From: a virus
IMG/VR virus record: IMGVR_UViG_3300027754_000420
Coordinates: 1 to 24,663 of that record
DNA length: 24,663 nt
Reading direction: 5' to 3' (one strand)
Made by a program: the position numbers and the translations under genes. Shown here piece after piece: positions 2,791 through 9,619 of this stretch. The notes under the pieces were generated by a model. That model saw nothing but the letters and a program-made list of their open reading frames with translations. It had not been told where the DNA came from and made no database searches. Within the stretch, counting starts at the first letter, position 1. Each line of letters begins with the position of its first letter.

Positions 2791-3524
2791 TGAACTTCTC
2801 CGCCAATAATTTGATTAAGCACGGCCAAGCTGGCTTCCCGGTTTGACAACGGGTCCGGCTCGTCAAGCCAGCAACGGCCATTTAGCCAGGTCGCGGGATG
2901 CTTGATGAATTTAGGTTCGCTCGGCCACTTCACCCGCAACAGTCCAGCAATGATTTCCTCCGGCGCAGCGCTTTTGATGGCAGCTGTCCAAGCACGCTCG
3001 GCCTGGCCCTTGCCCTTCTTTCGCGGATAGGCCTTCCAGAAATCATTAAACAGCGCTTCATGCGCCGATATTGGTCCTTGGTCCTTGGTACTGGTACTGG
3101 TACTGGTCCTAGGTACTGGTCCTAGATCCTTGGTCCTAGGTCCTAGGTCAGGAGCGAGGCTTCGCGAATCCTCGCGAGGACTAGCGAGGATGGCCGGTTT
3201 AGGTGGTAATCTGCTACCGGTAGGGTGGTCTATTTTCTGGTGTTTGCGCCAGTTTTCAATCTCTAGGTACCAATCTCCAGCAACCTGATATCGGGTGATG
3301 CAGCCTTCTGTTTCCAATTCAAAAAGCCAGCCGCCCATCAGCGCGCCGGCATCGTCATCGTAGGGGTAGAGAAGGCTCGCGAGCATTCGCGAGTTGCCGC
3401 GAGCGCGCCCGTCGTCATCGACAATCGTCCAGAGCATGATGAAGCACAGGCGGGCTTCACGGCTCACCCGGCCCATGCTTTCCGACTGCGGCAGTTCCGG
3501 TTTTATAGTGCGGATTCGGCCCAT
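2787..3524 (-). CDS. Lambda-O-like replication initiator
   Basis: The 245-residue protein has the two-domain layout of phage replisome organisers. The N-terminal domain (1-110) begins MGRIRTIKPE, then has EARLCFIMLWTIVDDDGR and LLYPYDDD, typical of the O-like winged-helix DNA-binding domain. A low-complexity linker rich in Gly, Pro, Thr and Ser follows (about 120-150). The C-terminal domain (156-225) has FNDFWKAYPRKKGKGQAERAW and FIKHPATWLNG, seen in phage O/DnaT-like proteins that engage host helicase machinery. I use the ATG at 3524, which overlaps the upstream stop as TAATG; the frame stays open to 3770 but that part only shadows the DnaA-like gene. The linker DNA is a tandem repeat, a candidate origin. 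Confidence 0.85.
   Translation of the reverse strand: MGRIRTIKPELPQSESMGRVSREARLCFIMLWTIVDDDGRARGNSRMLASLLYPYDDDAGALMGGWLFELETEGCITRYQVAGDWYLEIENWRKHQKIDHPTGSRLPPKPAILASPREDSRSLAPDLGPRTKDLGPVPRTSTSTSTKDQGPISAHEALFNDFWKAYPRKKGKGQAERAWTAAIKSAAPEEIIAGLLRVKWPSEPKFIKHPATWLNGRCWLDEPDPLSNREASLAVLNQIIGGEVH
3071..3150 (-). repeat. Tandem 6-7 bp repeats inside the O-like gene
   Basis: On the + strand these 80 bases divide into twelve consecutive 6-7 base units: TTGGTCC twice, TTGGTAC, TGGTAC twice, TGGTCC, TAGGTAC, TGGTCC, TAGATCC, TTGGTCC, TAGGTCC, TAGGTCA. They encode the flexible linker between the two domains of the O-like initiator. In lambda the origin iterons lie at this place within gene O, so the block may be an initiator-binding array. 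It could also be a simple-sequence expansion that the linker tolerates. The repeat is directly visible; the origin role is inference. Confidence 0.8.
3161..3180. other. Paired TCGCGA palindromes beside the repeat block
   Basis: Two perfect palindromes abut: TTCGCGAA at 3161-3168 and TCCTCGCGAGGA at 3169-3180. Two more TCGCGA sites lie in the same gene at 3377-3382 (within the palindrome GCTCGCGAGC) and 3387-3392. Four copies in about 230 bases is far above one per 4 kb. They sit next to the repeat block in the O-like gene and could be protein-binding sites of the origin or regulatory sites. No function is shown by the sequence alone. Confidence 0.5.
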
Positions 3525-3790: not shown

Positions 3791-4074
3791 TTGCTCACCC
3801 GGTAAAGCCAAAGCCCGCGCTCGACGTAACGCCTGGAAACCGTGAACCCGTACCGCCGCAAGTCCCGCAATCGCGCCGATACGCTCGCCTCGGGGTCGCC
3901 CGTCAGCCCGGCAATCTGCTTCAGGCCGCGCTCTACCCCGTCAATCATTACGTCATGCACGCGCTGGCACTGCTCGTTAAGCCGTTTGCCGTCTCGGGTG
4001 GCGTTGAATGTAACACCGAAATACTTGGGCGGCTCCGGCGGACGCCATGACAGGAGGTCGATCTGTTCGCTCAT
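3787..4074 (-). CDS. Winged-helix-like DNA-binding protein
   Basis: The 95-residue protein has a small helix-turn-helix or winged-helix pattern: QCQRVHDVMIDGVERGLKQI (about 36-55), then AGLTGDPEASVSARLRDLRR (helix, turn, recognition helix) and a YGFTVSRRYVERGLWLYRV hairpin resembling a wing at the end. Proteins of this form occur in phage replication and modification operons. DNA binding is likely and the target is unknown. The ATG at 4074 overlaps the methyltransferase stop as ATGA, and its own stop overlaps the DnaA-like start, so translation is coupled through the operon. Confidence 0.7.
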   Translation of the reverse strand: MSEQIDLLSWRPPEPPKYFGVTFNATRDGKRLNEQCQRVHDVMIDGVERGLKQIAGLTGDPEASVSARLRDLRRYGFTVSRRYVERGLWLYRVSK

Positions 4075-4880
4075 GCCGCCACCTGTTGCATGATGGCGCG
4101 GCCAATCATTTCCGGGATTTGCGGGACGACGGCGTTGCCTAGGCCTTTAAGTCGGTCCACCCGAGAGGGAACCCCATAAGCCACTCGACCCACATCGGGT
4201 TCAATGCGCCATTGGCTTCCGATGCTCCCGCCGCATGAGTCAGCATGAATTGATTTTGCGAGGTCTTGCGATAGGTGGCCCGCGAATCCCCAGCTTGTGG
4301 CGTCGGCCACATCACGCGCCCCGCCAGCTTCGATTTCTTGGAGACTTTCTGCCAATCCACATTTACTCCAGAGTCCTTGTGGTCCCGACTCGTTGGGGTG
4401 GGCCACGACCCAAAGGCGGTCCCGGCGGTGAGGGGCACCAACGGCGGAAGCTGGAATGCAATGCCACTCTGCATCGTACCCGAACGAGGCCAAGTCTCCG
4501 AGTACGTCGCCAAGCCCTCGACTAAGCAATGCTGCGACGTTTTCCACGATGACGAAACGGGGTCTAATCTCGCCAATAAGACGGGCGTACTCGCGCCATA
4601 GTCCCGACCGTTCGCCAGCGAGGCCCGCGCCGAGTCCGGCGAACGATATGTCCTGGCAGGGGAATCCGCCGCAGATGACATCAACGGCAATTCCGTCTGT
4701 TGCCAATCGCTCGGCTGTGAGGGTGCGGACATCTTCATATATCGGTACCTCGGGCCAATGCTTGCGAATTACCGCACGGGGGAATGGTTCAATCTCGCAA
4801 AAGGCGACGGTCTTCATGCCCGCCCGCTCAAGGCCAAGGCTTAAACCGCCGATGCCGCTGAAGAGGTCCAGCACCCTCAT
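4071..4880 (-). CDS. DNA cytosine-5 methyltransferase
   Basis: This 269-residue enzyme transfers a methyl group from S-adenosylmethionine to carbon 5 of cytosine. The ordered motifs are clear: motif I DLFSGIGGLSLGL (5-17), motif IV GGFPCQDIS with catalytic C75 (71-79), motif VI VENV (112-115), motif VIII GAPHRRDRLW (148-157) and motifs IX-X GLGNAVVPQIPEMIGRAI (246-263). The region between VIII and IX, where the target recognition domain lies, is short (about 85 residues) and low in complexity, so the enzyme is at the small end of the family. No restriction enzyme gene is visible, so it probably protects phage DNA. ATGA overlaps couple it to both neighbours. A second frame is open across 4139-4738. 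Confidence 0.93.
   Translation of the reverse strand: MRVLDLFSGIGGLSLGLERAGMKTVAFCEIEPFPRAVIRKHWPEVPIYEDVRTLTAERLATDGIAVDVICGGFPCQDISFAGLGAGLAGERSGLWREYARLIGEIRPRFVIVENVAALLSRGLGDVLGDLASFGYDAEWHCIPASAVGAPHRRDRLWVVAHPNESGPQGLWSKCGLAESLQEIEAGGARDVADATSWGFAGHLSQDLAKSIHADSCGGSIGSQWRIEPDVGRVAYGVPSRVDRLKGLGNAVVPQIPEMIGRAIMQQVAA
4139..4738 (-). CDS. Possible overprinted protein inside the methyltransferase gene
   Basis: A 199-codon ORF lies wholly inside the cytosine methyltransferase gene, on the same strand in a different frame. Its product contains STPVLLARLDPVSSSWKTSQ, YSETWPRSGTMQSG, FGSWPTPT, VMWPTP and LNPMWVEWLMGFPLGWTDLK. I know these motifs from many phage proteins of unknown function annotated near DNA methyltransferases. 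Because they arise from conserved methyltransferase codons (for example SWPTP from the RLWVVAHP region), the family may be a true overlapping gene or a recurring alternative-frame artefact. No strong ribosome binding site stands out at the ATG at 4738. I list it as a candidate only. Confidence 0.35.
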   Translation of the reverse strand: MKMSAPSQPSDWQQTELPLMSSAADSPARTYRSPDSARASLANGRDYGASTPVLLARLDPVSSSWKTSQHCLVEGLATYSETWPRSGTMQSGIAFQLPPLVPLTAGTAFGSWPTPTSRDHKDSGVNVDWQKVSKKSKLAGRVMWPTPQAGDSRATYRKTSQNQFMLTHAAGASEANGALNPMWVEWLMGFPLGWTDLKA

Positions 4881-7332: not shown

Positions 7333-7400
7333 CAGGCTCGGCTCGGCAAGGCTGGGCTTGGCAGGGCGGGGCAGGGCGGGGCAAGGCAAGGCAAGGAACT
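7333..7400. repeat. Pentamer tract NNGGC x12 plus short anchor
   Basis: Twelve consecutive pentamers of form NNGGC (CAGGC, TCGGC, TCGGC, AAGGC, TGGGC, TTGGC, AGGGC, GGGGC, AGGGC, GGGGC, AAGGC, AAGGC) run from 7333 to 7392, followed by AA and the anchor start GGAACT. It fills the gap between the SSB-tailed gene and the gene at 7434. It matches the array at 8003-8506 in pentamer form, the 5n+2 length rule and the anchor start, but lacks the rest of the 24-bp anchor. Between 7401 and 7433 two further pentamer-like units (AAGGC, AACGC) lead into AGAGGA, the ribosome binding site of the next gene. Confidence 0.9.
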
Positions 7401-7433: not shown

Positions 7434-8000
7434 ATGAAGCTAGTCTCAATCGAAATCTGTGGCGTAACGTCACTGCTGGTAAACCGGTTTTCGGAAAACT
7501 CCGAGAAGGCAAAAACAACGAGGCGGGTAGAGGTCAATGTTCGCGACCCTCGCGAAGAGGCGACCAAGGCCGCCTACATTGATCCAAACGACGGCACGTT
7601 TTACTTCTCGGCGTTCTCAATGCCAAACGCGATGAACCACAAGGCGGTCGGGACGCGCAAGACCCTCCGTTTTGTCGTGCCGTCAGCCATCCGCATGACC
7701 AGTGACCGGATCACGATCACGAACGGCGATGGCAATCCGGCAAAGAACTTTGAGGTTGATTCTCGGCCCGTCACGATCCCGGCGACCAAAGGCCGGATTA
7801 TGCGGCACCGGCCAAGGTTCGATTTGTGGGGTGCTAAATTCGATATGACCATTGACGATAACCTGTTGTCGCCGGAGATGGCTCATCAGCTTCTGAGCGA
7901 GGCGGGCCTGTCGATTGGTGTTGGTGATTTCCGGCCCGAGAAGCGTGGCCCGTTTGGCACGTTTCGGGTGGTGAAGTGGGACGAACGAGCGTTTAACTAA
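7434..8000 (+). CDS. Conserved phage protein of unknown function
   Basis: The 188-residue protein begins MKLVSIEICGVTSLLVNRFS and ends with GVGDFRPEKRGPFGTFRVVKW. In between it has YIDPNDGTFYFSAFSMPNAM and RHRPRFDLW. I recall phage proteins with this motif order (G.TSLL.NRF, a RPRF..W block, a terminal GVGDFRP..GPFG) near recombination genes; their function is unknown to me. The ferredoxin-like feel of the glycine-rich C-terminal motif recalls RAMP/Cas7-type folds, but I hold that at low confidence. The start has AGAGGA 8 bases upstream. Pentamer repeat tracts flank it on both sides, which is striking. Confidence 0.8.
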   Translation: MKLVSIEICGVTSLLVNRFSENSEKAKTTRRVEVNVRDPREEATKAAYIDPNDGTFYFSAFSMPNAMNHKAVGTRKTLRFVVPSAIRMTSDRITITNGDGNPAKNFEVDSRPVTIPATKGRIMRHRPRFDLWGAKFDMTIDDNLLSPEMAHQLLSEAGLSIGVGDFRPEKRGPFGTFRVVKWDERAFN

Positions 8001-8002
8001 CC

Positions 8003-8506
8003 CTGGCGGGGCGAGGCTAGGCGCGGCAGGGCTAGGCAGGGCTAGGCAAGGCATGGAACTACTGAGGCCAATATTCTCCAGGCGGGGCATGGCGGGGCAA
8101 GGCGAGGCGGGGCTGGGCTAGGCATGGCTTGGCAAAGCAAGGCAAGGAACTGTTGAGACCAATATTCTCGCGGCGGGGCTGGGCTGGGCATGGCTCGGCT
8201 TGGCGAGGCAAGGTAAGGCAAGGAACTACCGAGGCCAATATTCTCGTGGCATGGCAGGGCCGGTCGGGGCAGGGCTTGGCTCGGCAGGGCTTGGTAAGGC
8301 AAGGAACTACTGAGGCCAATATTCTCGCGGCGAGGCGGGGCATGGCGAGGCAAGGCGCGGTTTGGCAGGGCGAGGCACGGCGGGGCATGGCAAGGCAAGG
8401 AACTACTGAGGCCAATATTCTCGCGGCGGGGCGGGGCTTGGCGTGGCAAGGCGGGGCCAGGCAAGGCAGGGCGCGGCTTGGCATGGCAACGCAAGGCAAG
8501 GAACCA
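8003..8506. repeat. Array of NNGGC pentamer tracts and five 24-bp anchors
   Basis: About 500 bases between two genes consist almost wholly of pentamers NNGGC broken by a conserved 24-bp anchor (GGAACTACTGAGGCC then AATATTCTC). Anchors start at 8055, 8146, 8222, 8303 and 8399; a sixth truncated one (GGAAC at 8500) runs into the ribosome binding site and ATG of the DUF1064 gene. Pentamer counts before each anchor are 10, 13, 10, 11, 14 and 15, each followed by AA (AT in the first). Unit lengths are 91, 76, 81, 96 and 101, all 5n+1. A few pentamers are imperfect (AAAGC, AAGGT, CGGTC, GCGGT, TTGGT, AACGC). ORFs crossing the array on either strand are repeat artefacts. I do not recognise the element. 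Confidence 0.95.
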
Positions 8507-8824
8507 ATGAACAAATACAGAGCAAAACGAACAATCGTCGATGGCATTTCGTTCGCCAGCAAGGCAGAGGCGCGGCGGTACACTCAACTTCTGTTGCTCC
8601 AGCGAGCTGGGGCAATCGAAGGACTCGAACTGCAGCCGCGCTTGCTGCTGGTAGTGGCCAAAATAAAGATCGGCACTTATGTTGGCGATTTCCGATACCG
8701 CGACATGGTAACGGGCGACATGATCCTGGAAGATGTGAAAGGCGTGTTGACGCCGGTTTACAGGATCAAGAAGCGGCTGGTCAGAGCACTTCACGGCATC
8801 GACATTTTGGAAACGTCCGCTTAA
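8507..8824 (+). CDS. DUF1064 phage nuclease-like protein
   Basis: The 105-residue protein fits DUF1064, a PD-(D/E)XK-like phage family often found beside recombination and replication genes. Its motifs are MNKYRAKRTIVDGISFASKA (1-20), EARRY (21-25; likely metal-ligand E21), LELQPR (40-45), YVGDFRY (58-64; D61), LEDVKG (74-79; E75, D76, K78) and YRIKKRLVRALHGI (85-98). This suggests nuclease or junction-resolving activity, not demonstrated for this member. I place the start at ATG 8507, after AAGGA in the last truncated anchor of the repeat array. The frame stays open upstream to 8129, but that would add about 126 repeat-derived residues. Confidence 0.88.
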   Translation: MNKYRAKRTIVDGISFASKAEARRYTQLLLLQRAGAIEGLELQPRLLLVVAKIKIGTYVGDFRYRDMVTGDMILEDVKGVLTPVYRIKKRLVRALHGIDILETSA

Positions 8825-9116: not shown

Positions 9117-9619
9117 CTGACACGGCTTACCTGACCACGACGCTAGCCGCCATCCGCAAGCACTCACCATGCGAAAATGGCTGGGCGAAGCTGCTGAAAC
9201 ATCTTGGCAAGACCAGGGCCGACGATAAACCGTTGTCCCTCATCACAATTCTGGACAGCAACGGGTTGGAAGATGCGTTGTGGTGTCTCCGCGCCGTCAA
9301 GGATCACGAACGGGAGATGCGCTTGTACGCCGTTTGGTGCGCCCGGCAGGTCCAGCACCTGATGACCGATGCGCGGTCACTGGCGGCGCTGGATGTGGCG
9401 GAACGGTACGCCGCCGGCTTGGCTACGACCGCCGAATTGGCTGCGGCGCGGGCGGCGGCGCGGGATGCGGCGCGGGCTACGGCGTGGGCTGCTGCGGGGG
9501 CTGCGGCGTGGGATGCGGCGCGGGCTGCGGCGTGGGATGCGGCGGGGGATGCGGCGGGGGCTGCGGCGGGGGATGCATCGACCCTTGAGTTTCGCCGCCG
9601 TTTTGGATGCGCGTCGTGA
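9113..9619 (+). CDS. Alanine-repeat protein with tetrapeptide tandem repeat
   Basis: The 168-residue protein has an ordinary helical N-terminal part (about 1-108: SPCENGWAKLLKHLGKTRAD, EDALWCLRAVKDHEREMRLY, ARQVQHLMTD). From residue 110 a tetrapeptide repeat follows, [A/D]-[A/T]-A-[R/W/G], about eleven times, ending STLEFRRRFGCAS. Similar Ala-rich proteins occur in phages and in Imm5-like immunity-protein families, to which I loosely relate it. The repeat is encoded by exact 12-base units. It is translationally coupled to the preceding gene. The repeat would form a long amphipathic or coiled helix with Trp/Arg on one face; function is unknown. Confidence 0.75.
   Translation: MTDTAYLTTTLAAIRKHSPCENGWAKLLKHLGKTRADDKPLSLITILDSNGLEDALWCLRAVKDHEREMRLYAVWCARQVQHLMTDARSLAALDVAERYAAGLATTAELAAARAAARDAARATAWAAAGAAAWDAARAAAWDAAGDAAGAAAGDASTLEFRRRFGCAS
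9440..9571 (+). repeat. Eleven in-frame 12-bp tandem repeats
   Basis: Eleven units of 12 bases fit G[C/A]T GCG GCG [C/T/G]GG. Variation is almost confined to two places: the second base of the first codon (Ala or Asp) and the first base of the fourth codon (Arg, Trp or Gly). Units 2, 4 and 5 carry single extra changes. Because 12 is a multiple of 3, slippage changes copy number without shifting the frame. The tract spells the Ala-rich tail of the enclosing protein. Confidence 0.92.

Follow-up and report, generated by a model that had tools for sequence, protein, structure and literature searches.

VIPR, described in a preprint of April–June 2026 (PMC13142463; bioRxiv 2026.04.26.720920), consists of the RAMP protein Vipr and vrRNA guides, each carrying 9–16 YNNGG (GGY/NN) pentamers and an invariable 3′ tail; the NN pairs read double-stranded DNA with one base skipped, and transcription of competing phages and prophages is repressed (PMC13142463). 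The preprint ascribes GGY/NN 'or a related consensus' to every VIPR type (fig. S17; PMC13142463). The locus analysed here also shares a predicted RAMP fold and a programmable-guide array beside the RAMP gene with class 1 CRISPR-Cas (type III Csm3/Cas7), and a phage-borne tandem guide array plus small protein with TIGR-Tas, whose protein is described as belonging to another family (PMC12045711). The literature on known pentanucleotide repeats in phages yielded nothing relevant.

The window, i.e. the whole 24.7-kb viral record of IMG/VR, contains seven phase-locked (NNGGC)n tracts of 10–15 units each, located in the intergenic regions either side of orf 7434 (vipr; 7434–8000, + strand) and on the same strand. 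One tract lies upstream (T0, 7333–7394; 12 units, TC TC AA TG TT AG GG AG GG AA AA AA) and six downstream (8003–8499), with 10 (T1, 8003–8054), 13 (T2, 8079–8145), 10 (T3, 8170–8221), 11 (T4, 8246–8302), 14 (T5, 8327–8398) and 15 (T6, 8423–8499) in-phase GGC-NN units. The downstream tracts are separated by five copies, with few changes, of a 24-nt element, GGAACTACTGAGGCCAATATTCTC (8055–8078, 8146–8169, 8222–8245, 8303–8326 and 8399–8422, all + strand), a putative vrRNA 3′ tail; none follows T0 or T6, the latter leading directly into GGAACCAATG, with which the next gene begins. GGC is perfect in 79 of the 85 units of all seven tracts and three of the six deviant cores are GGT (GGY in 82/85), with zero phase slips inside the tracts. 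The positions of the unit have entropies of 0.18/0.09/0.22 bits (G-G-C) and 1.64/1.84 bits (N-N), with C disfavoured at the first NN position (2/85), and (GGCNN)4GGC occurs 40 times in the window versus 0 in each of 100 dinucleotide-preserving shuffles. All tracts close with AA-type units, mostly AAGGCAAGGAAC, so that the last two or three NN are almost invariant. The array of NNGGC pentamers with variable NN and preserved GGC and phase, first proposed in a first-pass annotation of this DNA, is thus real, and its five anchors are also confirmed, but the range contains six tracts and the seventh, T0, had been missed. Folding of the 24-nt element (model without pseudoknots) was no better than that of shuffled sequence, a permissive Rfam search gave meaningless matches only, and neither the region nor the complete window had a BLAST match among phage records.

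orf 7434 encodes a 188-aa RAMP protein matching PHROG 4652 (function unknown), as do all homologues in our set except one. A profile of 87 homologues searched against the PDB gave one strong match, 36pp chain D, annotated as 'SUSP1 Vipr protein' (E=6.9e-38), which the window protein alone also matches (single-sequence phmmer, 6e-6); orf 7434 is a homologue of Vipr of Escherichia phage SUSP1. The AlphaFold model (pLDDT 92) has a predicted Csm3/Cas7-like (RAMP) fold, the predicted structure being matched best, at Z 12.8 over 164 residues, by the Csm3/Cas7 subunits found in type III CRISPR complexes, and a G-x-G..RP..G-x-F loop is kept across homologues. The window Vipr alone found no match in GTDB genomes and a subclade profile identified nine loci, all in uncultured bacterial genomes, which gives no host for the window phage.

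Like VIPR of SUSP1 (PDB 36pp), the window locus is phage-encoded and combines a Vipr-family RAMP protein with GGY/NN pentamer tracts (9–16 units) and a constant element beside the tracts; SUSP1's own locus, fetched for comparison, likewise has one tract upstream of vipr and several downstream. The two differ in that the core is mostly GGT in SUSP1 and nearly all GGC in the window, the 24-nt element is unrelated in sequence to the SUSP1 constant element, no adjacent conserved vap was found at the window locus, and the Vipr proteins are distant (35% identity over the C-terminal half). The window carries the protein (RAMP homologue, G-loop, single RRM core), the GGY/NN tracts and the flanking layout that characterize VIPR. 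We regard it as very probable that this is a VIPR locus, whose tracts are guide RNAs for the neighbouring Vipr and would silence chosen DNA in rival phages. The array is of a known, described kind on protein, repeat and layout grounds; its earlier designation as an 'unrecognised' system was overtaken by the 2026 preprint (PMC13142463), while the strong interest it attracted is justified by the sequence, and the product of orf 7434 had correctly been pointed at as a partner. It is a real VIPR locus in an uncultured phage, ordinary for its kind, and that kind was described very recently; with it, this RNA-guided system gains an uncultured phage lineage whose sequence is far from that of SUSP1.

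The earlier comparison to a CRISPR-like layout, with the informative letters inside a degenerate unit, was right in spirit, the array lying beside a gene whose product should use it. Class 1 CRISPR-Cas arrays have identical repeats around unique spacers, whereas the window has none and its spacers are themselves built of one degenerate unit, two letters of each pentamer carrying the information. No cas families were found in the ten window ORFs scanned, and PADLOC on the Vipr set gave at most single marginal Csm3 matches. CRISPR-Cas membership was rejected, as near-identical repeats with unique spacers, and cas genes among the ORFs scanned, are both lacking.

By analogy with the phages of the VIPR paper (PMC13142463), from which RNA expression, RNP formation, the one-base skip and repression are carried over, the (NNGGC)n tracts would be transcribed as vrRNA guides and coated by Vipr (orf 7434), with the GGC triplets held and the NN pairs presented. 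Each NN would pair with two bases of the DNA target and one target base would be skipped (NNxNNx...), such that a tract of 10–15 units would specify a target of ~30–45 bp, and binding of Vipr and guide would repress transcription in a competing phage or prophage. A constant vrRNA tail or processing element would be supplied by the 24-nt element. That the locus of the window phage acts as VIPR of other phages does, and against what, is inferred.

Array and protein are linked in both directions. A pentamer pattern search, as the first-pass annotation had proposed, identified at least 120 stretches in IMG/VR with the DNA pattern (GGCNN)9 alone, and in 86 of the 120 contigs fetched there is a gene for an orf 7434 homologue, usually directly adjacent to the array and sharing its strand. 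The pattern (GCGNN)9, intended as a negative control, also gave 120 loci, of which 85 encode a homologue and have CGC-NN as the unit on the coding strand; simple pentamer microsatellites in this set, for instance the five at L140, L164, L169, L197 and L198, have no vipr homologue. In reverse, 75 of 86 loci fetched by protein similarity only (the window's subclade) carry GGC/GGT-NN arrays (≥8 coding-strand units no more than 1.5 kb away), the remaining 11 comprising ten weak or empty loci and one with an array on the other strand; many protein-fetched loci are near copies and these linkage figures are counts rather than independent events. Degenerate array and Vipr protein thus travel together in hundreds of contigs. 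In other relatives the constant element between tracts tends to be locus-specific and the final tract leads straight into the gene that follows, so that from DNA alone the 24-nt element may be a 3′ tail or a 5′ leader. Constant elements between tracts at L373:6590–7162 contain hairpins whose stems vary between copies yet look pairable by eye, a possible compensatory change.

The nearest relative, L129, has genes ~87% identical to those of the window at the DNA level over 3.9 kb and shares the 24-nt element. Alignment of these related phages for N variation, another check suggested earlier, showed that all six downstream guides of L129 differ from those of the window, two of the six being recent copies, while the upstream guide, T0, is mostly kept. 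At L129:11109–11386, tracts are duplicated as two-tract blocks together with 24-nt elements, which we read as sequence evidence of array growth by recombination. This turnover is what guides would be expected to do under changing selection, and supports rapid reprogramming in phage–phage conflict.

Among IMG/VR loci L130–L249 (e.g. L177, L150 and L136) is a second large class of Vipr loci with CGC/NN arrays, which end in CGCAACGCAACG at the 3′ end of the coding strand. The core triplet can be placed on a tree of 87 proteins with 8 changes, versus 25 for shuffled labels; one clade with full support is CGC in 22 of its 23 members, CGC/NN is also found in several separate lineages inside GGC groups, and the starred branches force at least four triplet switches. 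Residue 17 differs most between the classes (H/N/D in GGC, mostly S/C in CGC), with exceptions in L011 and L082; in an independent-pairs test 2–3 of four pairs are concordant and hardly any discordant, numbers too small to reach significance. This class may partly be known already, given the mention of 'a related consensus' in the preprint (PMC13142463).

Guides were decoded with the one-base skip and exact eight-pair cores of T5, T6 and T2 were searched in IMG/VR, giving 23, 6 and 16 matches, respectively, with extension at chance level and thus no credible target; neither the window nor L129 showed a self-target. When 1000 guides were compared with 3.4 Mb of fetched loci under the skip rule, one strong match was obtained overall and the rest were at the level of shuffles. 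In this match the CGC-class guide L177:2224–2303 agrees with sister phage L150 (3663–3704) in 27 of 28 letters, spanning 14 pairs and with skip 1 only. The L150 site lies just beside an L150 array, in the VIPR locus of the sister phage, and the copy of the site in L177 itself has six mismatches to the guide among the 28 letters. This single case agrees with VIPR-against-VIPR conflict and points to the same one-base-skip code in CGC arrays. It is likely that the guide code is not tied to GGY, CGC/NN being read by the same one-base skip and triplet and protein having changed in concert on at least four occasions, with residue 17 a candidate determinant. With a CGC/NN class that co-segregates with the protein, recognition of the fixed triplet by Vipr becomes testable.

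An iteron-like or recombination-site DNA, in which a phage protein (ERF, replication protein or the 7434 product) binds the GGC lattice and NN are merely free, would suit the five-base period, about half a helical turn, and the YqaJ, ERF and DUF1064 genes beside the array. This is very improbable, as the array follows the Vipr gene rather than recombination genes (of 87 relative loci, 2 have YqaJ, 7 have ERF and none has DUF1064), keeps to one strand relative to vipr in 171/174 cases, and has a core triplet that tracks the Vipr tree; free letters would also be expected to drift, whereas wholesale replacement is seen between neighbours still ~87% identical. The iteron-like reading and the tie to recombination genes in the first-pass annotation consequently find no support, relatives keeping the array with the Vipr gene. 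A replication initiator-like gene lies ~3.5 kb from the array on the other strand. The gene adjoining the array (8507–8824, + strand; DUF1064/phrog_190, nuclease-like) is at most a candidate accessory gene (vap); none of the 87 relative loci carries a DUF1064 gene beside vipr, which speaks against it as vap, and no conserved accessory gene was found beside vipr in these loci.

The GGC tracts and terminal AAGGCAAGGAAC could instead form a leader or ribosome-binding sequence for flanking genes (a translation or RNA-stability element), and the last tract does end in AAGGCAAGGAACCAATG, which could plausibly act as Shine-Dalgarno sequence of the 8507 gene. What comes after five of the tracts is another tract and not a gene, arrays of the CGC class end in CGCAACGCAACG, which is no Shine-Dalgarno sequence, and NN turnover is left unexplained; as the function of the array this is equally hard to credit, although the last tract may serve in this way secondarily. 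Slippage-born repeat junk or an assembly artefact has a negligible probability: the whole-tract duplications in L129 indicate that the locus does expand by recombination, but GGC is fixed while NN are nearly free, true microsatellites from the same kind of scan have no vipr gene, and the two-way linkage, with the array beside one protein family in hundreds of contigs, refutes it.

Outside the VIPR locus, the window has a short TGGTCC/TGGTAC tandem repeat (3071–3149) within the replication initiator-like ORF (minus strand), and a 12-bp tandem repeat (GGCTGCGGCGCG-like, ~11 copies; 9439–9576) inside the alanine-rich open frame orf 9113 (phrog_18326). An ArdC-type anti-restriction protein and a C5 cytosine methyltransferase (1037–1876 and 4071–4880) are further conflict genes of the window phage.
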